From positions 1 through 62,216 of IMG/VR virus record IMGVR_UViG_3300046357_000001: DNA of 62,216 bases. One strand, given 5' to 3'. Each line of letters starts with the position of its first letter. Position 1 is the stretch's first letter. The translations under genes and the position numbers were made by a program. Under the pieces are notes generated by a model that was given only the letters and a program-made list of their open reading frames with translations, had not been told where the DNA came from and searched no databases. The DNA comes from a virus. Of the stretch, positions 588-48,217 are shown in pieces.

Positions 588-2766
588 GGAGAAAGCGTAC
601 ACCGAGGGTTTAAAGCTGCTGGGGCTTCAGTACGAGGAACGCACAGAACCTTGGAATGGTGCCTCCGGTGTGTTCCACCCCATGATTACCGAGGCTGTGG
701 TGCGCTTTCAGAGCGAGACCATCACGGAGATGTTCCCAGCCGCGGGGCCAGTGCGTACCAAGATCGTCGGGAAAGAGACCACCGAGAAGAAAGAAGCCGC
801 CAAGCGCGTTCAGGAAGACTTGAACTATGAGCTGACAGAAGTCATGCGCGAGTTCCGCCCAGAACAAGAACGTATGTTGTGGTCGCTGCCAGCTACGGGT
901 TCAGCGTTCAAGAAGGTGTACTACGACCCCAGCCTCGGCCGCCAAGTGTCGATGTTTGTGCCGGCCGAGGACATCATCCTGCCTTACGGCACGACCGACA
1001 TGGACACTTGCTACCGCCTGACGCACGTCATGCGCAAAACAGCGAACGAGATCAAGAAGCTCCAGCAAGCGGAGTTCTACATTGACATCGAGCTTGGCGA
1101 AGCTACCAAGGAACAGACGGACATCCAGAAAGCCAAGGACAAAGAGACTGGCTTCAGCGACATCGACGACGATCGCTACACGCTCTTGGAGATTCACGTT
1201 GACTTGGACCTCGAAGGTTACGAGGACGTGGACGGTGACGGCGAAGAGACAGGCATTGCCTTGCCTTACGTTGTGACCATGATTAAAGGCACAAACGAGA
1301 TTCTGGCCATTCGCCGTAACTGGAAGGAAGAAGATGACCTCCGCCTCAAGCGACAACACTTCGTCCACTATCAGTACATCCCGGGTTTTGGGGCCTATGG
1401 CTTCGGTCTGTTCCATCTCATCGGAGGCTTCGCCAAGTCAGCGACGTCAATCATGCGTCAATTGGTGGACGCTGGAACGTTGTCTAACTTGCCCGGCGGT
1501 CTCAAGTCACGGGGACTTCGCATCAAAGGTGATGACACTCCGATTGCACCGGGTGAATGGCGCGACGTAGACGTTGGTTCGGGCAACATGCGCGACAGCA
1601 TCTTACCGCTGCCTTACAAAGAACCAAGTTTGGTGTTGTCTGGCTTGCTGGACAAGATTGTGGAGGAAGGCCGTCGCTTCGCTGCATCCGCAGACATGAA
1701 GGTGTCGGACATGTCCGCCCAAGCCCCCGTGGGTACAACCCTTGCCATCCTTGAGCGCCAGCTGAAGATCATGACGGCTGTGCAGGCCCGTTTGCACTAC
1801 GCGTTCAAGCAAGAATTGCGCCTGTTGTCGACAATCATTCGCGATTACACAGACCCTGACTACGATTTCGAGCCAGAAGAAGGTAAACGTACGGCCAAAC
1901 AGTCCGACTACGCGTGCTGCGACATCATTCCGGTCAGTGATCCCAATGCTGCAACCATGTCACAACGTGTTGTGCAGTACCAAGCGGTCATTCAAATGGC
2001 CCAGATGGCGCCTGACATATATGACTTGCCTCAGCTGCACCGCAACATGTTGGAGGTGTTGGGCATCAAGAACGCCGAGAAGCTGATCCCATTGGCCGAA
2101 GACATGAAGCCGAAAGACCCGGTGTCCGAGAACCAAGAGCTGCTTAAGTGCGAGCCAGCCAAGGCATTCTTCCACCAAGACCATAAGTCCCACATTGCTG
2201 TGCACCAAGCAATGATGCAAGACCCAACGGTTATGGCGATCATTGGCCAGAACCCCAAAGCCCAGCAGATCATGGCTGCGGTGTCGGCACATTTGGCCGA
2301 ACACGTTGGCTTCCAGTACCGTCAACAAATCGAAATGCAGTTGGGTATGCCTTTGCCAGCAGACGACCAGCAGTTGCCACCACAAGTTGAAATCTCCTTG
2401 TCAGGCATGTTGGCACAAGCCGCACAGCAAGCCTTGGCACAAAACCAAGCGCAAGCCGCTCAACAGCAGGCACAGCAACAAGCTCAAGACCCGCTCGTGC
2501 AGATGCAGCAGCAAGAGTTGGCTATCAAGCAGCAAGAAGCCCAGACAAATGCTCAGAAAGTTCAGGGCGATTTGCAGCTCAAGCAAGCCGATTTACAGAT
2601 CAAGTCACAGGCTCTGACGGCCAAGACATCGTTGGAAGCGGCCAAGATCAAAATTTCTCAAGAACAACTGTCTTCCAAGACAAAACTTGACGGCATCAAA
2701 GCCGCGTCCGAAATCTATGCTTCCGATCGTCAACTAAACCAACCACGAGGTAATAACACCAAATGA
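319..2766 (+). CDS. Portal protein
   Basis: An 815-residue protein directly downstream of the large terminase, the classical portal position, and of the length seen for podovirus-type portals. The dodecameric portal forms the DNA entry vertex of the capsid and docks the terminase. The first ~75 residues are very acidic. The middle contains portal-like mixed alpha/beta sequence, and the last ~120 residues are a Gln/Ala-rich region that probably forms coiled coil or the barrel helix. The ATG at 319 is preceded by AAGGA (308-312). The stop overlaps the next start by 4 bases (ATGA). A second, partial copy with a different N-terminus lies at 61951. Identification rests on position, size and general sequence character. 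Confidence 0.9.
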   Translation: MAFDKALTQAPMGIDALAQDEEPIEIEIVDPEEVNIHAGDLEISIGKEEEDGDEGFNDNLAEYMDEGAMQSLAGELSGSIDQDKASRKDWEKAYTEGLKLLGLQYEERTEPWNGASGVFHPMITEAVVRFQSETITEMFPAAGPVRTKIVGKETTEKKEAAKRVQEDLNYELTEVMREFRPEQERMLWSLPATGSAFKKVYYDPSLGRQVSMFVPAEDIILPYGTTDMDTCYRLTHVMRKTANEIKKLQQAEFYIDIELGEATKEQTDIQKAKDKETGFSDIDDDRYTLLEIHVDLDLEGYEDVDGDGEETGIALPYVVTMIKGTNEILAIRRNWKEEDDLRLKRQHFVHYQYIPGFGAYGFGLFHLIGGFAKSATSIMRQLVDAGTLSNLPGGLKSRGLRIKGDDTPIAPGEWRDVDVGSGNMRDSILPLPYKEPSLVLSGLLDKIVEEGRRFAASADMKVSDMSAQAPVGTTLAILERQLKIMTAVQARLHYAFKQELRLLSTIIRDYTDPDYDFEPEEGKRTAKQSDYACCDIIPVSDPNAATMSQRVVQYQAVIQMAQMAPDIYDLPQLHRNMLEVLGIKNAEKLIPLAEDMKPKDPVSENQELLKCEPAKAFFHQDHKSHIAVHQAMMQDPTVMAIIGQNPKAQQIMAAVSAHLAEHVGFQYRQQIEMQLGMPLPADDQQLPPQVEISLSGMLAQAAQQALAQNQAQAAQQQAQQQAQDPLVQMQQQELAIKQQEAQTNAQKVQGDLQLKQADLQIKSQALTAKTSLEAAKIKISQEQLSSKTKLDGIKAASEIYASDRQLNQPRGNNTK

Positions 2767-2960
2767 TCCAAGACTTCGCACGCGTACTGCGCGAACAAGT
2801 ACGCACCGATATGAACAATTATGCTGACGACCTCGCAGGCGGGGTGTGTCAGGACTTTAGCCAGTATCAAAAACTCTGTGGGATTATTCAGGGTCTAGCC
2901 CTTGCAGAGCGTTACATCATCGACCTTGCAACGAAAGCGGAGAAAGCAAATGACAACTGA
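2763..2960 (+). CDS. Small conserved-type protein after portal
   Basis: A 65-residue, helix-rich protein (IQGLALAERYIIDLATKAEK near its end), with the start overlapping the portal stop as ATGA and its own stop overlapping the next gene by 11 bases. The tight translational coupling in the packaging/head module argues that it is real. It contains no motif I can name. It may assist portal or head assembly, but that is only inferred from location. Confidence 0.75.
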   Translation: MIQDFARVLREQVRTDMNNYADDLAGGVCQDFSQYQKLCGIIQGLALAERYIIDLATKAEKANDN

Positions 2961-3399
2961 AACCCTGTCAGGATTAATCCTGCCCCCGGGCATCGCCCTA
3001 CCAACCCACATTCAACCTATGGAAACACCGGAAGAAAGTGCTGACGACGAAACCAAAGCTGGAGCACTACCAACACCAACAGGTTGGAAGATTCTCTGCG
3101 TGGTCCCCGAAGTGGATGCGAAACTCGCGGGCACAACCCTCGACTTAGTTCGTGACACGGCCTCAATGCGTGGTGAAGAGCACGGCACAACCGTGTTGTT
3201 TGTCTTGCGCACAGGACCAGACGTGTACAAAGACACTACCAAGTTCCCCACAGGCGCTTGGTGTAAAGACGGTGACTTCGTGCTCGTGCGTACATATACC
3301 GGTACGCGTTTCAAGATTTTCGGTAAAGAATTCCGCCTGATTAACGACGATCAAGTGGAAGCTGTTGTTATGGACCCCCGCGGATTAACCCGCGCATAA
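2950..3399 (+). CDS. GroES-like co-chaperonin (Cpn10 fold)
   Basis: A 149-residue protein. After a ~40-residue Pro-rich leader, residues ~42-145 follow the GroES plan: GWKILCVV (strand 1), a loop region with RDTASMRGEEHG where GroES has its mobile loop, a middle segment with GDFVLVRTYTG (compare GD-VIFNDG), then FRLINDDQVEAVV, matching the GroES ending VLIMSESDILAIV. Phage GroES homologues (such as T4 gp31) partner with the host GroEL to fold the capsid protein, and this gene lies just before scaffold and capsid genes, which fits. ATG at 2950 is chosen over an upstream in-frame start because it follows the previous gene's end closely. The family call is by motif order only. Confidence 0.6.
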   Translation: MTTETLSGLILPPGIALPTHIQPMETPEESADDETKAGALPTPTGWKILCVVPEVDAKLAGTTLDLVRDTASMRGEEHGTTVLFVLRTGPDVYKDTTKFPTGAWCKDGDFVLVRTYTGTRFKIFGKEFRLINDDQVEAVVMDPRGLTRA

Positions 3400-3408
3400 G
3401 GAGCAAAG

Positions 3409-4344
3409 ATGTCTGAATACAAGTTCCCAGACGAACTCGAAGACACGTCTGTTCAGGTAACAGTGGATGATGGCGACATCGAAGTCGAGATCATTGACGA
3501 CACCCCTGAAAAAGACCGTGGTCGTAAACCGCTTGAAAAAGCAGTGGAAGACCCCTCGGAAGAGGAGATCGAGTCGTACTCATCCAACGTGCAAAAGCGC
3601 ATTAAGGATTTGACACATGCCCGCCACGACGAGCGCCGTGTCAAAGAAGCCACCATGCGTGAGAAGCTCGAGCTTGAGAACCTCACCAAACAACTGATCG
3701 CAGAGAACCGTTCTTTGCGTCAAAACGTCAACACAGGTGCTGAGCACTATGTGGCCCAATCGAAGGCTATGGCCGAGACTGAGCTTGACAAAGCCCGCCG
3801 TGAATACAAGATCGCACAGGAGTCATTTGACTCTGACGCCATCCTTGCAGCACAAGAAGCCTTGTTGGATGCCAAAATAAAAGTGGAAGATGCGAAAAAG
3901 TTTCGTCATACCCCTTTACAAGTGGAATCTGATGAGGTACAAACGACTCATCGCGAACCCGAACGCGTACAACCAGACGAAAAAACCTTGCGCTGGCAAG
4001 CTAAAAACCAGTGGTTTGGAAGCAATGGGTTCGAAGAAGTTACCAGCTTTGCACTAGGGCTGCATCAAAAACTAGTGAACTCCGGGACTGACCCAAGGTC
4101 AGACGAGTATTTCGAGCAGATCAATGCTCGCGTGAAGTCCAAGTTCCCCGAAGTTTTTGGGGACACTGAAGACACGTCATCTAACGGTGCGTCCTCCAGA
4201 AAACCTGCTTCCGTCGTAGCCCCTGCCACAAGATCGTCGGGGGCTAAAAAAGTCCAACTGACGACAACCCAGCTCGCGCTGGCTAAGAAATTTGGATTGA
4301 CCCCTCAGCAATACGCTGTACAAGTAGCAAAACTGGAGAACTAA
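3409..4344 (+). CDS. Capsid scaffolding protein
   Basis: A 311-residue, highly charged protein with an acidic N-terminus (~60 residues), a long predicted coiled coil (residues ~60-170, many Glu/Lys/Arg/Ala heptads) and a basic C-terminal tail after residue ~255 that could bind the capsid protein. The last residues (LTPQQYAVQVAKLEN) are helical. Position between the portal-side genes and the major capsid gene, and the elongated helical composition, are typical of head scaffolds, which template procapsid assembly and are then removed. The start has a good Shine-Dalgarno sequence (AAGGAGCAAAG before ATG). Confidence 0.8.
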   Translation: MSEYKFPDELEDTSVQVTVDDGDIEVEIIDDTPEKDRGRKPLEKAVEDPSEEEIESYSSNVQKRIKDLTHARHDERRVKEATMREKLELENLTKQLIAENRSLRQNVNTGAEHYVAQSKAMAETELDKARREYKIAQESFDSDAILAAQEALLDAKIKVEDAKKFRHTPLQVESDEVQTTHREPERVQPDEKTLRWQAKNQWFGSNGFEEVTSFALGLHQKLVNSGTDPRSDEYFEQINARVKSKFPEVFGDTEDTSSNGASSRKPASVVAPATRSSGAKKVQLTTTQLALAKKFGLTPQQYAVQVAKLEN

Positions 4345-41363: not shown

Positions 41364-43793
41364 TTAAGATTTAATTTCTGTGTCAAACAATTGGGTTAGT
41401 AGTGAGTGGTCACTAACCTTTGTTTCTAATGCTTTAAACATCTTTTTCTCAATCGGTGAGCCTTGGATGTGGATGACAGTCACTTTGTCGGACGTCTGTC
41501 CCTTGCGGTCAGCACGCGCACAACACTGCACATATTGCTCCACAGACATCAACGGACCGTAGAACACAACCGTGTCGGCAGCAGTCAAGGTAATACCGTG
41601 AGCAGATGCTTGGGGCTGCATCACAAGGACGCGTGGGTCTGGGTCAGTCTGGAACCTACGGATGATGTCACCACGCTTGGAGGCAGGCACGTCACCACGA
41701 ATCATCTCTGCGCTGATACCTTTCTTCAATAGGTAGTTGTGGATGTTGTCGATACTACTGGTGAACAACGCGAAGACCAATACCTTGCGAGTCGTCTCTT
41801 CCAAGATTTCCTCCAGTACCGCCAAGCGAGGCGCCGCATCAAACTCAACCACTTCACCGTTGTCGGTGTAGGCAGCGCCACAACTGATCTGCAACAACTT
41901 CGATACACCCGCCGCCGCATTGACTGCACTGATAGTCTCGCCGCCAGTTTGAATCAGCATACGGTCTTTCAAATGCTCGTAGTACTTCTTCTGTTGCGGC
42001 GTCATCGGCACTTCACGCGTCATCGTCACCACAGGTGGCAGGTCCAAGCATTCAGCCTTAGTGAAACGAATGGCGGGTTGTAACGCCTCGAACACTGTGT
42101 CTCCTGCGTTAGCCTTCGGAGCCCACTTGAACATAGTGATCTTGTTCAGTACTTTGTCGCGCCATGCTGTGTAGAACTTAGGTACGTTGGTAGGGTTGAC
42201 CAGCTTGGCCAGCCCATATGCGTCAGCAGGCGACTGTGATGCAGGTGTACCAGTCATCATCCACAACAACGTCTCAGGCTTGATGATGGATGCCAGCGCC
42301 TTCCAGCGCCGAGTAGTAACGGTCTTGTATGCGTTGCAGTTGTGTACTAACCAGTGATCCCCAACAAAGTAGTTAGGTGTTCCCGCAACTTCGAGGTTGT
42401 AGACAGCTTCACCGTCTGGGCATTCGATATGCGAAACACTTTCCACCCAAGCGTTTCCAGCTTGGTCTCCTTCTTCCGGTCTTGCGCTTGGCGTGCTGTC
42501 GCTGTATGACTCCCCCCGTCCACCTCCAGCCCTATCTTGAGGTGCGGCAATGCGAAGTCGAGCTTGTAGTTCGTAGGAAAGCCTTGCTGCCTCTTTCCCA
42601 ACGCTACGGGGTAGTTCCATACCCAACCCACAGGCAAGACCTTGGAAATCAAACACTCTGTTGGAGTCATCCCCGTGCCATTGCCGCCCCGCACCTTGGG
42701 TTTGAGCCCCAGCGCCTTTGCTGCCGCTGACAGTTTCGCTCGGTGTTCCGCAGTCTTTGGCCCCGAAGGTTTCCCCCGCTGCTCGTGTGGCATTTCGCAA
42801 AAGTAGCTCTTGCTGGGGTTCAGTAAGTGCCATCTCTTCCGTGCGCAGGATTTGGAGCAGGTCTGTCCAAGCGCCTTTTGGTACTTTTGCGCCCATGTGT
42901 ACCGGGATTGTGGAAAGTGGTACTCCTGCCCGCAAACAGGACAGTTCAAGACCAGATATAAGCCGTCTACCCGTAAGATTTTTGGCACACATCCATCCAG
43001 CGTCTGTGAAGAATGGGTGCTCTGGGGTGCACCGAATTGTTTTTCCGTTTCCAAGTTTGACCTCGACAATCTGTTTAGTGGTATTGCGTACAAGCCTGTT
43101 TATACCCATTACTCCGTCAGATGTCAAGACCTTATCCCCCATTTGCAGTTGTTCTATGGGCCGTCTACCTTGTGGGGTAGCCACCAAAGTCCCTGCTACA
43201 AAGCACTCATCAACGATAACCAGATCGAACTTGCCGTTGGCGTTTATCTCATCAGCAATTAAGTTCAAGCCTTCGTAGTTGGTAATGACGAACTCATAGT
43301 TCTGTTGCACCATCTCGATACGACGCGATGCTTGTGGGTGGTGGGCGATGATCGCGCTACGGTGAATGACGCTTGCGTTCAAGTCCTGCATCCAAGCTGA
43401 CTGCATGATCGACAACGGACACAGCACAAGGACTCGTCTCACTTCACCACGTGTCATCAAGTAGTCCGCGGCCCACAATGCTGAGAGCGTCTTGCCTGTG
43501 CCGGGCTCGCTAAACACGAATGCCTTGCGGTTGAGCGTTAGGAAAGATGCTGTATCAATCTGGTGTGCCATTGGCTTGTGACGGCCGGGCCAGTTATAGC
43601 GGCGTGTGATTGGTGAAGGTACGTCCTTCACCCCTAAGTTTTTAAGCACTCGACATTCGTCTAGTCCCCAGAAAACAGCTACCTCCGCAGACCCGTCTTC
43701 GTATTGCTCGACGACTTTGCTGCGGGGAATGACTGTGTACTTTTCTGGGTTTCTAGTTCGAAGGAGCAGCGCCTTGTCTTCGATGATTTCCAT
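41364..43793 (-). CDS. SNF2/DEAD-type helicase containing an intein
   Basis: An 809-residue precursor. Extein N-part: Walker A SEPGTGKT (95-102), VLVLCPLSIM motif Ia, NYE and FDLVIVDE at 190-196. The intein follows at Cys197 and ends at Asn485; the extein resumes as CNAYKTVTTRRWKAL, so splicing gives IVDECNAYK, the DEAH-box-like Walker B of SNF2-type helicases. Motif III MMTGTPASQSP and motifs V/VI (QPQASAHGITLT, QCCARADRKGQ) follow. The spliced enzyme would be 520 residues. Likely role: unwinding or remodelling in replication or recombination, next to RecB-like and HNH nucleases. GAGAGAAGCA precedes the ATG. Confidence 0.9.
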   Translation of the reverse strand: MEIIEDKALLLRTRNPEKYTVIPRSKVVEQYEDGSAEVAVFWGLDECRVLKNLGVKDVPSPITRRYNWPGRHKPMAHQIDTASFLTLNRKAFVFSEPGTGKTLSALWAADYLMTRGEVRRVLVLCPLSIMQSAWMQDLNASVIHRSAIIAHHPQASRRIEMVQQNYEFVITNYEGLNLIADEINANGKFDLVIVDECFVAGTLVATPQGRRPIEQLQMGDKVLTSDGVMGINRLVRNTTKQIVEVKLGNGKTIRCTPEHPFFTDAGWMCAKNLTGRRLISGLELSCLRAGVPLSTIPVHMGAKVPKGAWTDLLQILRTEEMALTEPQQELLLRNATRAAGETFGAKDCGTPSETVSGSKGAGAQTQGAGRQWHGDDSNRVFDFQGLACGLGMELPRSVGKEAARLSYELQARLRIAAPQDRAGGGRGESYSDSTPSARPEEGDQAGNAWVESVSHIECPDGEAVYNLEVAGTPNYFVGDHWLVHNCNAYKTVTTRRWKALASIIKPETLLWMMTGTPASQSPADAYGLAKLVNPTNVPKFYTAWRDKVLNKITMFKWAPKANAGDTVFEALQPAIRFTKAECLDLPPVVTMTREVPMTPQQKKYYEHLKDRMLIQTGGETISAVNAAAGVSKLLQISCGAAYTDNGEVVEFDAAPRLAVLEEILEETTRKVLVFALFTSSIDNIHNYLLKKGISAEMIRGDVPASKRGDIIRRFQTDPDPRVLVMQPQASAHGITLTAADTVVFYGPLMSVEQYVQCCARADRKGQTSDKVTVIHIQGSPIEKKMFKALETKVSDHSLLTQLFDTEIKS
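42339..43205 (-). mobile_element. Intein in helicase Walker B
   Basis: An 867-base, 289-residue intein (helicase residues 197-485). Block A is CFVAGTLVATPQGRRPIEQL (Cys1), block B has IRCTPEHPFFTDAGW (the TPEH motif with its His), block F/G is VYNLEVAGTPNYFVGDHW then VHN with terminal Asn, and the next extein residue is Cys. These are the residues needed for protein splicing. There is no in-frame LAGLIDADG or HNH domain. The ~150-residue middle (Gly/Arg/Asp/Ser/Gln-rich) is unlike normal folded sequence, because a nuclease gene occupies the DNA in another frame. Confidence 0.93.
42347..43054 (-). CDS. Homing endonuclease (Vsr/DUF559-like) overprinted in helicase intein
   Basis: A same-strand gene wholly inside the intein, in the +1 frame. 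A zinc-finger module is visible (CPVCGQEYHF, then CSKSC about 24 residues later), then a Lys/Arg-rich linker and a Vsr/PD-(D/E)XK-like nuclease: NYKLDFALPHLKIGLEVDGG (active Asp and Glu), QDRKKETKLETLGWKVFRI (Gln, Lys). The frame opens after a TAA at ~43106. TTG at 43054 is preferred (GAGG then 6 bases); TTG at 43093 is also possible. The stop (42347-42349) is 6 bases from the intein end, so blocks F and G are doubly coded. It would promote intein homing into helicase alleles that lack it. Confidence 0.85.
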   Translation of the reverse strand: METEKQFGAPQSTHSSQTLDGCVPKILRVDGLYLVLNCPVCGQEYHFPQSRYTWAQKYQKALGQTCSKSCARKRWHLLNPSKSYFCEMPHEQRGKPSGPKTAEHRAKLSAAAKALGLKPKVRGGNGTGMTPTECLISKVLPVGWVWNYPVALGKRQQGFPTNYKLDFALPHLKIGLEVDGGSHTATARQAQDRKKETKLETLGWKVFRISNAQTVKLSTTSKLREHLTTLLGITG

Positions 43794-43808
43794 TGCTTCT
43801 CTCTATCT

Positions 43809-44048
43809 TTATTTGTTATCGCCTTCGTTTGCTTTCTTGGCACGCAAACGCAAATTGCCCGGAGTTGTCTTACCACCCTTGCGCAGTGGCTTGATGTGGT
43901 CGATGTCCTTACCTGCGCGGTCGATACCCTTCTTGTCAAACAACTGGCGTGCGCGTTGGCGCTCGGATTGGTCAGACCCCGGACCGGACTTGCCGGTCTC
44001 TAGGTCACGTTTGTATTCTTTTGCGTAGTCGCGTTTGCGTGTTGCCAT
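43809..44048 (-). CDS. Small HNH-like endonuclease
   Basis: A 79-residue basic protein with IDHIKPLRKGG then TPGNLRLR, an HNH-like core (first His, then Asn) of the small phage HNH group, although the last His is not obvious. The Lys/Arg-rich N-terminus could grip DNA. Located between the helicase and the RecB-like nuclease. It may aid packaging or be a mobile gene. Start has a SD-like TAATGAAA; call is by motif. Confidence 0.65.
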   Translation of the reverse strand: MATRKRDYAKEYKRDLETGKSGPGSDQSERQRARQLFDKKGIDRAGKDIDHIKPLRKGGKTTPGNLRLRAKKANEGDNK

Positions 44049-44057
44049 GATTTACTT

Positions 44058-44720
44058 TCAGTGTTTTTTGTGGAACTCACAGCCAGTGCAAGGACACCAG
44101 CCGCAGAGCGGGGTACGTGTTGGATTCCATACATCGTTGTCGATGCACGAAGCGATACGGCTAACGCGTTCACGATACTTCCACCATTCGGAGTCCATCT
44201 CGTCAACGTTCATGCTGTGCTTAACCATATCATTCTTGACCACGAAGAGCAACGCTGAGTTGACCTTGCGGATGTGCGGGAAGTGCTTGAATACCATCAC
44301 TGACATGAGGCGTAGCTGGTCACGGTCTGGGTACTTGTTGTTACCCGTCTTGTAGTCCACCACCCATGCAGTCAGGTTCTCGTCATCAATGATGAGCAAG
44401 TCGGCTACGCCCCTCACCCATGCATCTTTGGCAAACCATTCAGTCGGTGTCAGGTCTTCCTTCAGTGTCATCTTGTACTCAGCCAACTTGCGGCCGGGCT
44501 TGTTGATGAGCGCATCGAGCGTGTCCTTAACAAACTCAAACTGCTTGGGCAGCGGTGTGCCCTCACCTACGTAGAGTTCGGCTGCCTTGTGCAGCTCGTT
44601 ACCGTAGCGCGTAGCCTCGGTCTCCACGAATGGGTGCATCTTCAGAATACGTGTGGCGTGATACTTCCGCGCACACTGCTCAAACTCCTTGAGCGATGAA
44701 TGTGACCATGATATTTTCAT
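44058..44720 (-). CDS. RecB-like PD-(D/E)XK nuclease
   Basis: A 220-residue protein. Motifs: WSHSSLKEFEQCARKYH at the start (helix with Cys), GNELHKAAE (conserved His), GVADLLIIDDENLTAWVVDY (catalytic Asp) followed by KTGNNKY (Lys), and a C-terminal cluster CGWCPCTGCEFH, like the Cys-rich iron-sulfur region of Cas4/AddB-type exonucleases. It probably acts in phage recombination or DNA end processing. Its start overlaps the stop of a truncated HNH gene (ATGA). Confidence 0.87.
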   Translation of the reverse strand: MKISWSHSSLKEFEQCARKYHATRILKMHPFVETEATRYGNELHKAAELYVGEGTPLPKQFEFVKDTLDALINKPGRKLAEYKMTLKEDLTPTEWFAKDAWVRGVADLLIIDDENLTAWVVDYKTGNNKYPDRDQLRLMSVMVFKHFPHIRKVNSALLFVVKNDMVKHSMNVDEMDSEWWKYRERVSRIASCIDNDVWNPTRTPLCGWCPCTGCEFHKKH

Positions 44721-45025
44721 AAGTTTCCTGCTGGGTGAAGAATTCGTTTTGCGGTTATGTAGGCAGCATGGGCTTCTTCGGCGGTATCAAAATATCCCAA
44801 GTGCTTTCGCTTCCCATCAACCTTGATGAAAGAAATAAAACGCTTGTGTCGTTTGTGCCAACTAGCGCCTAGTAGTTGCGTTGACTTGTTCTTCGGGCGG
44901 TACGCTTTTTGATTCTGTCCGTTCAACTTGTGGTTGGAAAGGCGTAGGTTCTTAAAGCGGTTATCAAGTGGGTTTCCGTTGATATGGTCAATCATTTCTG
45001 TAGGCCACACCCCCGTCTCAAACAA
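44717..45025 (-). pseudogene. Truncated HNH-AP2 homing endonuclease
   Basis: A 102-residue open frame from a TTG at 45025. It has IDHINGNPLDNRFKNLRL, the second half of an HNH nuclease, then an AP2-like DNA-binding domain (WHKRHKRFISFIKVDGKRKH, LGYFDTAEEAHAAY). The first half of the nuclease, including the HRL-type histidine strand that precedes WLFETGVWP, is missing; upstream in frame there is only KIVWLFETG after a TAA. It is probably a remnant of an invading HNH gene, unlikely to cut DNA. The AP2 part might still bind DNA. Confidence 0.75.
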
Positions 45026-45041
45026 CCAAACAATCTTTTAT

Positions 45042-45344
45042 TCAAAACCTCGCAGTCTGGATTGCTTTGGTCAGTCGGTTGGCAAAGCCAGTGACGAACC
45101 GTTCGTTTTTGTTTAAGGTATCCATCCCCATGTCCTCAAGGATGGCGTGTGTCAGCTCATGCCAGAACGTGTCCGCAATCGCTTCGGGCTTGTACACCCT
45201 GCCGGTCACGTTGCTACGTTGGCCTATCGTGATGCACTTGGTAGGGTAGTTGACATCCCCCATGCGCCCACGCTGGGCCATAGCCTCAACGATCTCAACC
45301 GAGTAGTGCTTATTGCCCACTCGAACTTTTCTTGGTAGCTTCAT
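45042..45344 (-). CDS. SprT-like zinc metalloprotein
   Basis: A 100-residue protein with an HELTHAIL zinc-peptidase motif (His, Glu, His), preceded by GRVYKPEAIADTFW and an N-terminal beta part (VRVGNKHYSVEIVEA). Small single-domain proteins of this kind occur in many phages and resemble SprT/minigluzincin families. It lies just downstream of DNA polymerase in the leftward operon. Substrate is unknown. Confidence 0.8.
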   Translation of the reverse strand: MKLPRKVRVGNKHYSVEIVEAMAQRGRMGDVNYPTKCITIGQRSNVTGRVYKPEAIADTFWHELTHAILEDMGMDTLNKNERFVTGFANRLTKAIQTARF

Positions 45345-45355
45345 TTGCTTTCTCC

Positions 45356-48217
45356 TTATTTCTTTGCTAACCCGTATCGTCTGTGTGCGCCACCGTCAGC
45401 GTCGAGCGGAATGCCCTTCAAATACTTTGGCTCCATAGTCATCTGCGCCAAGACCCAAGTCTTAGCGTCATCCACCTCTGCATCAGGCACAACCACGATC
45501 TGTTCATCATGCACTGTTCCCGCCACGAAGTACTTCTTCGAGGTTCTCAACATACCATCCGTCATCACGCATCTCGCTACGCCCTGCGTGACGTTGTTGG
45601 TAATCTTTCCAGCGTACAGTTTAGTCTCATCTGCGCCGTATGTCCACTGCACCCTACCTTTTTCATCCTTGCCACGCTTCAAGTCCGGATACAGCAAGCT
45701 CATGCCAGAGGGCAGCACGATCTCGCCCTTCTTAAACGTCAGGCATTTGTATGTGTATTCCTTGCCACCGAACAAGCTAGTCTCGATGAGCTGGCCGCAC
45801 ATGCCCCAGAAGTCCACAACAGGCTGCGCAGTCTTACGGTACTTGTCGATAATCTTCTTGGCCGCTAGGCAGTGGATGAGCAACTCTGCCTTGGTACAGA
45901 TGTGCGGTATCTCATTCATCTTTTCAACGAAGTCTTCATTGTCCAAGAACTTCTCAACGTCTTCCGCCGTGACGCCCAGTGCCTTGGCGAACTTTCGCTC
46001 GTACCGTACAGGTGGCGCACCCAAGAAGCCCACGAGGAGTTGAGACGCAAATGATGCCCAACCTAACCCATACCCGCAGTTGTGCACAATCAATGGCCCT
46101 GCGTCCGTCCGAATGGTGTATCTGTTACGCGGCCCTGCATAAGCGATGTCGTAGGTCTGCATTCTCTGCTTCAAGGGTTGCGATGCGGGTGCGTAGTTCG
46201 ACAACTTCTCGTGCGGTGATTTTGCGCTTGTTGGACATATTGACGCTGCGGTTGACGAAGCGAAGGTTGCTTGGTTCATAACCTCGGTTGTTGTCTGTCC
46301 TATCCAGTTGAAGTTCTGGTTTGTCCCACCCCTCAAGCCCAACGAGGTAACGTAAGAATTCAACACGGTTCGCAACCCATTCTGGGTAAACCGTAATTCC
46401 ACGCCCCCCATAGTCGGGGTACACGGAACTGTTCGGGTTTGTGCATCTGACGATGATGGCGCTGATTCTGTCCAAAAGTCGAGCACGATGCTTTCGATCA
46501 GGGCAAACAGCGAAATATCCTTTTCGTTCCCATCGAGTTTCAACAGCCTTTCTTTTAGCGCAGGCATCGCAGCGCGTAGTACGCCCTGCAACAATGTTAT
46601 ATCTATCGACAAACCCCGACCACCCGCAGGAGCACTGCACAACAGGATGGAATCCACCAGTTGTCTTGCGATCCCAGCGGAGGCAGGTAAGCTCGCCGAT
46701 GACAGCGCCGATTTCAAAAGGGAACGGTTTGCTAGGGCCTCTGACCACTCCACCCACCCCCGTTCCGTCAGAATTTCGTGGCCCGAAGTCGCGCTTACCC
46801 CCAGTGCTGTCAGCACTTCCTTTTCGCCTTGCGGCACTAACCCCTGATGACATACCCACTCCTCTCCATCCCATACCATATCCGTAGCCTGTACCCGTGT
46901 TATAGGTATCCAACCGCGTCTAGTCAACACAGGCGTGTCGGGGCCGAAGCACCCAAGTAAAGCGGACTTCGCTGACTGCCGAAGGTCGGGGTGTGACTCT
47001 TTTGACAGGCCCGGGATGTTGAACATCTGAGCGCCGAACTGTGCGTAGGGGTCACCGCCCGCGACGAAGATGCGTAGGAGTTCGTCGTATTCTGCCAGCC
47101 ATGCGAGAACCCGAGGCTCGATCTGCGATAAGTCGCCGACGACCAACTGATAGCCTTTCGGAGCCATGATAGCTTTGCGGAGAAACGAACCACGTTTGAG
47201 GTTTTGCATGTTGATGGCCGAACCTTTGCTTGCAGTCCACCGTCCCGTCGCAGCACCATAGTACGAGAGTGGTACAGGAAGCGTGCCCCGTCCGGCGATG
47301 TCGAGGAACCGTTGTGCACGAGTCCTCTCCGTGGTGGATTTAACTGAGAGCCTTGCTTGGCATAGTGCTTGAACATCTTCGTTGTCTCCGTTCAACATGG
47401 CTTGGAACATCGCATCGGTTTTGGCAAACGCGAAGTTAACACCCGTCGGATGCGGTGTCTTGGCCGTGGGTTTCTTTTTCTTGGTAGGTGGCTCGATGCC
47501 CACTAAGCGCAACGTCTCAGCGAAGCGCACGTTACTGGCCAAGTCCCCACCCATCACCTCAAGGCGGGCAAGCAAGGCTTCACGCTTCTCCTTCTCATCA
47601 TGCAAGGCATCGACCAACATGTTTTGATCCAGTACCAGCACGGGACGCGTGTACATCTTCAACGTCATGTCGATGAGTCTCAGCTCCTTTGCTGGATAGG
47701 ATGCAGCCAGCCTTTTGAATATTTCTTCGCACAGAAACACATCATGTTGGCAGTACTCAGCGAGTTCTCTTTCGAGCGTGGCGTCCAACTCGTGAACTCC
47801 ATTAGTTGAATATACGGCCGTGCCTTTAGCCGGGAGGCCGAAGTCGGTTGCCAGTTTCGCGAGGGAATTACCAACTTCCACGCCTCGTAAAGCTCGGCCC
47901 ATTGATAAGGTGTCGAAGATGAAGCAGGGGTGGATCTTGTACTTCCATTCGAGGATGGCCACATCGAACTGTGCGTTATGCGCGAGGATGGCCGTGTTGT
48001 CCCAGTCGAATGTCTGAAGGACTCGAGGTAGTTCATCTCCTCGATACCACTGCACAATTCCGTCGCTTCCGTATACATGGAGGCAAGCTCCGAATACTTT
48101 GAATCTATCATGGCGTATGTACTCCTCGGTTGTCATCTTCGATAGGGTGTAACCGCTAGCGGTGTCCCAGTAGGTTTCGTAGTCGATTGTTACGATCTGT
48201 TTAAAAGGTGCACTCAT
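45356..48217 (-). CDS. DNA polymerase I-type (family A) with an intein
   Basis: A 953-residue precursor. Residues 12-159 hold a DnaQ-like 3'-5' exonuclease: DYETY (12-16), NAQFD (81-85) and YCQHD (155-159). Polymerase motif A is DLSQIEPRVLAWL (from 362), motif B is RQSAKSALLG (413-422), then the intein, then CGYGLGWASF, motif C is VHDEQI near the C-terminus. The intein (423-713) is inserted inside motif B/the O-helix, a common site for polymerase inteins. The spliced enzyme would be 662 residues. It copies the phage genome. AGAGGAAGAAT precedes the ATG. Its 3' end adjoins the SprT-like gene. Confidence 0.93.
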   Translation of the reverse strand: MSAPFKQIVTIDYETYWDTASGYTLSKMTTEEYIRHDRFKVFGACLHVYGSDGIVQWYRGDELPRVLQTFDWDNTAILAHNAQFDVAILEWKYKIHPCFIFDTLSMGRALRGVEVGNSLAKLATDFGLPAKGTAVYSTNGVHELDATLERELAEYCQHDVFLCEEIFKRLAASYPAKELRLIDMTLKMYTRPVLVLDQNMLVDALHDEKEKREALLARLEVMGGDLASNVRFAETLRLVGIEPPTKKKKPTAKTPHPTGVNFAFAKTDAMFQAMLNGDNEDVQALCQARLSVKSTTERTRAQRFLDIAGRGTLPVPLSYYGAATGRWTASKGSAINMQNLKRGSFLRKAIMAPKGYQLVVGDLSQIEPRVLAWLAEYDELLRIFVAGGDPYAQFGAQMFNIPGLSKESHPDLRQSAKSALLGCFGPDTPVLTRRGWIPITRVQATDMVWDGEEWVCHQGLVPQGEKEVLTALGVSATSGHEILTERGWVEWSEALANRSLLKSALSSASLPASAGIARQLVDSILLCSAPAGGRGLSIDITLLQGVLRAAMPALKERLLKLDGNEKDISLFALIESIVLDFWTESAPSSSDAQTRTVPCTPTMGGVELRFTQNGLRTVLNSYVTSLGLRGGTNQNFNWIGQTTTEVMNQATFASSTAASICPTSAKSPHEKLSNYAPASQPLKQRMQTYDIAYAGPRNRYTIRTDAGPLIVHNCGYGLGWASFASQLLVGFLGAPPVRYERKFAKALGVTAEDVEKFLDNEDFVEKMNEIPHICTKAELLIHCLAAKKIIDKYRKTAQPVVDFWGMCGQLIETSLFGGKEYTYKCLTFKKGEIVLPSGMSLLYPDLKRGKDEKGRVQWTYGADETKLYAGKITNNVTQGVARCVMTDGMLRTSKKYFVAGTVHDEQIVVVPDAEVDDAKTWVLAQMTMEPKYLKGIPLDADGGAHRRYGLAKK
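46079..46951 (-). mobile_element. Intein in DNA polymerase A motif B
   Basis: An 873-base, 291-residue intein (residues 423-713). Block A is CFGPDTPVLTRRGWIPI (Cys1), block B has ATSGHEILTERGW (conserved His), and the C-terminal block has YDIAYAGPRNRYTIRT then GPLIVHN with terminal Asn, followed by Cys of the extein. No in-frame endonuclease motif is present. The central ~190 residues are Ser/Ala/Leu/Thr-rich and look unstructured, because the DNA encodes a nuclease in another frame. Confidence 0.92.
46125..46853 (-). CDS. HNH homing endonuclease overprinted in polymerase intein
   Basis: A same-strand gene wholly inside the polymerase intein, in the +2 frame. After a ~50-residue basic N-terminus come CSCGW and CDACAKRK (zinc knuckles), then the HNH domain: ISAIIVRCTNPNSSVYPDYG, YGGRGITVYPEWVANRVEF, then LQLDRTDNNRGYEPSNLRFV with the NRSVNMSNKRK ending of this HNH group, and a leucine-zipper-like tail. 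ATG at 46853 has a very strong Shine-Dalgarno sequence (GGAGAGGAG then 5 bases), though a TTG at 46913 is open too. It ends 46 bases before the intein end. A second, independent case of a nuclease nested out of frame in an intein. Confidence 0.88.
   Translation of the reverse strand: MSSGVSAARRKGSADSTGGKRDFGPRNSDGTGVGGVVRGPSKPFPFEIGAVIGELTCLRWDRKTTGGFHPVVQCSCGWSGFVDRYNIVAGRTTRCDACAKRKAVETRWERKGYFAVCPDRKHRARLLDRISAIIVRCTNPNSSVYPDYGGRGITVYPEWVANRVEFLRYLVGLEGWDKPELQLDRTDNNRGYEPSNLRFVNRSVNMSNKRKITAREVVELRTRIATLEAENADLRHRLCRAA

Follow-up and report, generated by a model that had tools for sequence, protein, structure and literature searches.

Two genes of a viral genome, encoding a helicase and a DNA polymerase, were each found to be interrupted by an insert that is very probably a mobile intein whose homing endonuclease is a separate gene, overprinted on the intein in another reading frame. 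Comparison of relatives demonstrates, at the level of sequence, selection on both layers, avoidance of stop codons, conserved internal starts and a patchy distribution with precise empty sites. Splicing, independent translation, cleavage and homing are what we infer.

Genomic setting and the two host genes

The window (the whole stretch of DNA that was analysed, an IMG/VR virus record of 62,216 bases) contains portal, terminase and primase genes of phage type. The helicase is interrupted immediately 3' of its Walker-B/motif II (...VIVDE/, the slash here and below marking the insertion point) and the polymerase after ...SALLG/. Two inteins of 289 and 291 aa, at 42339-43205 and 46079-46951, had been proposed in a preliminary description, together with two unrelated nucleases encoded on the same strand, one Vsr-like in frame +1 and one HNH in frame +2; both proposals were confirmed from sequence, the nucleases by matches to DUF559 (6.2e-8) and PHROG_374 (1.4e-31). 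The near-equal length of the inteins had also been read as a sign of design, but this is not significant: lengths range over 281-298 or 289-294 aa within the two families and, within each, track nuclease size. Both inteins contain Cys1, a block B TxxH motif, a terminal HN and Cys+1, all invariant in alignments of their relatives. No in-frame nuclease was detected in either the helicase or the polymerase precursor by Pfam and profile searches, and an Rfam search of the region returned no match.

Freestanding HNH genes also occur in this neighbourhood. Between the two intein-bearing genes lies an HNH_3 and AP2-domain protein (44717-45025, minus strand, phrog_99, 2.3e-37), which may home independently or act as a collaborative-homing helper. 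Directly upstream of the helicase gene is a 79-aa HNH protein (43809-44048, minus strand, phrog_4590), the second freestanding HNH less than 1 kb from an intein gene.

The helicase intein and its nested Vsr-type gene

The features of the helicase locus, all on the minus strand, are as follows:

41364..43793 (-), host gene 1, SNF2-family helicase ORF, 809 aa (SNF2-rel_dom 1.9e-18, Helicase_C 9.8e-15, phrog_62 3.7e-99)
42339..43205 (-), intein 1, 289 aa, CFVAGT...LVHN then Cys+1 (Pfam Intein_splicing 5.2e-11; intein_Nterm 8.3e-8; intein_Cterm 0.0054)
42981..43205 (-), intein 1 N-terminal splicing region, blocks A/B, TPEHPFF; host frame dominant
43061..43064 (-), GAGG Shine-Dalgarno-like site, 6 nt ahead of the TTG start, within the host-frame VEVKLG codons
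42347..43054 (-), putative nested gene for a zinc-finger plus DUF559/Vsr-like (EDxHD-type) nuclease, 235 aa from a conserved TTG, frame +1
42410..42586 (-), DUF559 nuclease core (Pfam 6.2e-8, residues 170-228 of the 248-aa ORF)
42339..42443 (-), intein 1 C-terminal splicing region, blocks F/G; shares its bases with the C-terminal end of the nested gene, with constraint on both frames

The nested ORF extends from 42347 to 43093 (minus strand, 248 aa, frame +1). For both inteins, the nested gene probably starts within the N-terminal half (at TTG 43054 in intein 1; at GTG 46859 or ATG 46853 in intein 2) rather than at the first listed TTG, because stops lie upstream in the nested frame of several relatives. 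Conservation of the internal start codons exceeds the demands of the host protein. At the helicase intein, the nested TTG overlaps a host Leu codon for which 20 of 22 loci use CTT, compared with 9.7% in exteins, and the Glu codon at the GAGG site is GAG in 22 of 22 loci, compared with 190/268 in exteins. In the alignment of relatives the host-frame residues C1, T60 and H63 are invariant, as are E159, H165 and D174 of the nested protein, with D161 near-invariant; we take these four nested residues to be those of the E-D-x-H-D catalytic motif. The nested protein has this motif within a DUF559/Vsr fold. When its profile was compared with the PDB, 3hrl was matched at 8.5e-9; the I-Bth0305I structure itself (3r3p) scored E 0.6.

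The polymerase intein and its nested HNH gene

The features of the polymerase locus, again on the minus strand, are as follows:

45356..48217 (-), host gene 2, family-A DNA polymerase ORF, 953 aa (DNA_pol_A 4.2e-16, phrog_17 5.3e-65)
46079..46951 (-), intein 2, 291 aa, CFGPDT...LIVHN then Cys+1 (Hint-like halves in the AlphaFold model; inteins in Foldseek)
46685..46951 (-), intein 2 N-terminal splicing region (pLDDT >90 at residues 1-80)
46859..46867 (-), GGAGAGGAG, purine-rich Shine-Dalgarno-like stretch ahead of the nested HNH starts, within the host DGEE codons
46125..46859 (-), putative nested HNH endonuclease gene, frame +2, 244 aa from GTG 46859 or 242 aa from ATG 46853
46218..46715 (-), HNH domain region (PHROG_374 match to residues 67-232 of the 262-aa ORF)
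46184..46681 (-), intein 2 in-frame linker, predicted disordered, host aa identity 0.36, stop-free (AlphaFold, codon-position and stop counts)
46079..46183 (-), intein 2 C-terminal splicing region, containing the end of the nested gene; substitutions back at host position 3

No Pfam intein family matched the polymerase intein. Its host-frame AlphaFold model reached a pLDDT >90 at residues 1-80 and >=90 at about 260-286, with values <50, indicating a disordered linker, at residues 91-256. The leading Foldseek matches to this model were all inteins (DnaB, gp41 and RecA mini-inteins), so that a Hint fold plus a disordered linker is predicted. This supports the earlier description of the in-frame linkers as unstructured. 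Residues C1, T55, H58, H290 and N291 are invariant among relatives.

The ORF nested in this intein covers 46125-46913 (minus strand, 262 aa, frame +2) and matches the HNH family PHROG_374 at 1.4e-31. The nested protein was modelled with a pLDDT of 87. Foldseek gave only a weak PDB match to this model, PacI (E 0.3), and a PDB sequence search gave no useful match. Four cysteines, invariant in the alignment of relatives, appear to be zinc-binding. The canonical first catalytic His is missing from this HNH subfamily, in which LDRIDN replaces xDHxx. The third base that makes the nested ATG is A in 17/23 loci, against 6.8 expected; the strength of the Shine-Dalgarno sequence upstream of the start differs among relatives and is not conserved in all.

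Selection on both reading frames

Three independent lines of sequence evidence, from stop codons, substitutions and start codons, indicate that the nested nucleases are more than chance. The stop test held the nested protein fixed, shuffled its synonymous codons and counted stops in the host frame. No host-frame stops were present in 65 Vsr-type loci (6.4 expected per locus) or in 28 HNH-type loci (3.9 expected per locus), which bears out the earlier proposal that the host frame is kept open; in a control set of 49 freestanding HNH relatives, 6.14 stops were seen against 6.15 expected. Conversely, a longest alternate-frame ORF as long as that observed arose in 0/3000 (Vsr) and 1/3000 (HNH) codon-shuffled hosts.

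The codon-position pattern changes along each insert. Differences in the exteins and the N-terminal splicing blocks fall mostly at host codon position 3 (69% of them in the N-terminal splicing region of intein 1). Across the Vsr linker they shift to host position 1, which is position 3 of the nested frame. Across the HNH linker, host position 2, again nested position 3, differs at.58 compared with.19/.27 at the other positions, and this nested wobble rate is the same as that at position 3 of the HNH-type N-extein (.58). Differences return to host position 3 at the C-blocks of the HNH type, and blocks F/G of the Vsr type are constrained in both frames, with rates of.12/.10/.21 at the three codon positions. 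The switch was repeated in the Jerseyvirus and Kagunavirus phages (.10 vs.013/.041). These figures for stops, substitutions and starts are strong in direction but are not literal probabilities, and the locus counts overstate statistical weight because related sequences are not independent events.

A codon-shuffle check of the nuclease profile matches, which the preliminary description had proposed, was also run. Every real intein scored above all 40 of its own shuffles, but 59% and 79% of the shuffles for the two types still reached E<=1e-3. The test is weak because the host amino acids fix most bases of the alternate frame, and this poor null was replaced by the stop counts with their freestanding control and by the codon-position rates.

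Distribution in phages and bacteria

The layout appears to be widespread and little-noticed, being conserved in phage and bacterial genomes that number well above a hundred, and the nested proteins are deeply conserved (30-45% identity). With the Vsr profile, the nuclease was out of frame (+1) and inside an intein at 64 of 64 viral loci checked. These sites usually lie right after the DE of Walker-B/motif II in helicases and terminase-like ATPases. A second scan used only the intein C-block, as a subset alignment since the full C-block alignment was too diverse. It gave 79/80 loci with a Vsr-type nuclease in an alternate frame and 0 in frame, the remaining locus being truncated; this survey depends in part on the nested gene, which the C-block overlaps, and some contigs occur in both scans. 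Its hosts include clamp-loader-like LDE/CH sites, where inteins of 345-439 aa hide a Vsr-type nuclease (L232, L233, L249-L253, L261 and L265). Cultured Vibrio, Pseudomonas and Corynebacterium phages share the same Vsr-type nested layout. One of the 79, a helicase-site intein of 147 aa (L246), retains a weak Vsr-type remnant in the alternate frame (E 1.4e-5) and is likely a decay product turned mini-intein.

Bacterial genomes yielded 25 nested loci and 27 freestanding DUF559 genes. Hidden Vsr-type nucleases were seen in bacterial inteins of Planctomycetaceae, Roseicella, Azospirillum and Fimbriimonadaceae (L289, L291, L292 and L294), where the hosts are helicase-like proteins of 1000-2200 aa and the intein ends in SN/C, not HN/C. 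A nuclease-independent survey of PF14890 inteins in bacteria, to which two nuclease profiles were applied, found Vsr-type nested nucleases in 3/~22 Pseudomonadota loci, one of them eroded, and in 0/30 Bacteroidota loci; the Vsr-type nested arrangement is therefore a minority among cellular inteins.

The HNH profile retrieved 80 loci, of which 27 were polymerase inteins with the gene nested in +2 and 51 had no open host frame. The HNH is nested in Salmonella Jerseyvirus polymerases too. One further locus (L187, host 702-3932, nested gene 2959-3630) carries an HNH of another subfamily, in frame +1, at a distinct polA site ahead of the polymerase ENVTQA motif (GGKL/C...HN/CENVTQ), and is supported as an independent third configuration. 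Together with the conservation of the nested genes, it upholds the recurrence that the preliminary description had suggested. Another candidate, L189, was rejected as an upstream overlap of a DnaE-like gene.

The nested nuclease genes lack annotation in the records inspected. In that of phage Ent1 (L023), the helicase intein is annotated as containing an in-frame LAGLIDADG domain and the polymerase intein as splicing domains only; the HNH hidden in the latter is not annotated.

Empty alleles and mobility

Among cultured phages of Salmonella and Escherichia the same polymerase intein is found alongside precise empty alleles. Within Jerseyvirus and Kagunavirus, 404 records match the polymerase, 151 of them covering >=80%; in many others the match is split in two, with precisely the intein left out between the parts. 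The empty allele of S119 is 2,202 bp, compared with 3,099, with the junction GKA/CELG and 95.4% identity. In six intein-bearing phages of this set, 36% and 29% of third positions are different in the exteins, compared with only ~10% for the freest positions of the intein. Intein divergence is thus far below that of the exteins, and the intein is therefore younger than the genes it occupies. At the polymerase site of the window, the junction is spanned without an intein in 80 viral loci of 85-99% identity.

Divergence in the nested part is correlated with divergence in the splicing part (Mantel r.75 and.77), and in the polymerase group this association is tighter than that of either part with the exteins (.50 and.43). 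Across helicases, clamp-loader-like genes and terminases, the nuclease accompanies the intein at Walker-B sites.

Proposed mechanism and alternative explanations

Under the overprinting model, one frame would be read through in the helicase or polymerase precursor as N-terminal half, disordered linker and C-terminal half, and the intein would be removed by self-excision after translation. From a second initiation site within the N-terminal half, ribosomes would read the other frame to give a separate homing endonuclease, either zinc-finger DUF559/Vsr-type (+1) or HNH (+2). Alleles lacking the intein would be cleaved by this nuclease at the same site or close to it, with repair then copying the whole insert into the cut allele. 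The protein sequence of the linker could drift freely, the sole demand on it being the absence of stops.

It is extremely improbable that these are simply mini-inteins of a GC-rich phage bearing fortuitous long ORFs, with a nuclease likeness that is accidental or a relic. Weak profile scores do persist in codon-shuffled hosts, and for this reason a profile match alone is weak evidence. However, the nested frame has a wobble pattern of its own, and the codon-position pattern already refutes this explanation; conservation at 30-45% identity, nuclease homology at E 1e-31 and the outscoring of all 40 shuffles by each real intein also count against it. A programmed frameshift fusing the frames into one protein, in place of two products, is very unlikely: the frames do overlap on the same strand, but the internal start codons are conserved and nested-frame stops lie just upstream in several relatives. 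Somewhat less improbable, though still unlikely, is that the nested nuclease is selected for another role (e.g. marker exclusion) and that neighbouring freestanding HNH genes drive mobility by collaborative homing. Such genes are indeed nearby (44717-45025 and 43809-44048), and a freestanding HNH gene flanks the polymerase of phage KMB36; against this, the nested and splicing parts co-diverge as a unit and the nuclease remains with the intein at Walker-B sites across three kinds of host gene.

A further alternative concerns origin only and fits with the overprinting model of present function. The nested genes may derive from a compensated frameshift of a former in-frame endonuclease domain that gained its own start later, which we regard as a lesser but real possibility. 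The nuclease sits mid-intein, the usual place of canonical endonuclease domains, and the nested C-terminus ends at the intein C-blocks. On the other hand, no in-frame DUF559 or HNH version was present among the intein relatives surveyed, freestanding relatives exist and one offset is kept throughout each lineage. Capture of freestanding genes is hence a plausible origin, with the compensated frameshift as its main rival. Of the convergent capture previously put forward, the convergence in nuclease family, frame and intein lineage is supported, and the direction, from freestanding gene to insert, is plausible but less secure, the frameshift origin being still a rival.

Comparison with known systems

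On balance, we lean towards regarding these elements as an undescribed class, the "overprinted intein", with at least three origins (DUF559 in +1 at Walker-B sites, HNH in +2 in polA, and another HNH in +1 at a second polA site). Overlapping frames would supply separate proteins for splicing and for homing, the nuclease would be expressed independently of the essential host protein, and many phage inteins catalogued as endonuclease-free would be active mobile elements. Inteins without an in-frame endonuclease are usually termed immobile mini-inteins. Here, an intein lineage of this kind appears to maintain, under selection and in a different frame, a complete gene for a homing endonuclease, and the scoring of intein mobility and of the homing cycle would change accordingly. 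Overprinted genes would gain a natural, widespread example. The cultured Salmonella phages, with intein-plus and intein-minus forms ~95% identical, offer a directly testable system. In the literature searched, which stopped short of a 2025 preprint on non-canonical actinobacteriophage inteins, no intein was described that combines conserved splicing domains with an endonuclease encoded out of frame.

The closest published relative is the ShiLan domain, which places an HNH out of frame in phage methylases, together with the hidden HNH insertion of Pacc40 gp60 (Arsenault, Gosselin, Gogarten 2025, PMC11855218). The authors reported no intein splicing motifs and predicted that the insert stays in the protein (PMC11855218). 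Both systems have an out-of-frame HNH in a stop-free insert of a phage gene, a patchy and apparently homing distribution and a disordered in-frame peptide. Here, however, the hidden gene lies between conserved splicing halves with their fold, nucleases of a second family occur too, and insertion is in active-site motifs of replication/packaging ATPases and polymerases.

Group I introns with endonuclease ORFs likewise place a homing ORF in a spliced insert, but here splicing would be at the protein level, and because of this the host frame must stay open. A group I intron reading was rejected, there being no Rfam match in the region.

Fractured genes, reportedly described by Dassa and colleagues in 2009, are said to be split inteins with EDxHD/Vsr-like endonuclease ORFs and to have provided the first description of EDxHD/Vsr endonucleases. 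The nuclease superfamily is the same, and in both cases a separately translated nuclease would lie between splicing halves; in fractured genes the host gene and its intein are divided between two proteins, whereas here the host ORF is continuous, stop-free in 65+28 loci, and overlaps the nuclease gene. As a family of homing enzymes, EDxHD/Vsr endonucleases are already established (PMC3943268; PMC12350094).

Canonical large inteins, with in-frame LAGLIDADG or HNH domains, resemble the present elements in having a splicing domain with an endonuclease between blocks B and F, insertion at conserved sites and empty alleles. They differ in that the endonuclease here is an overlapping separate gene with its own start. 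Both kinds occur in phage Ent1, whose helicase intein is annotated with an in-frame LAGLIDADG and whose polymerase intein hides an HNH.
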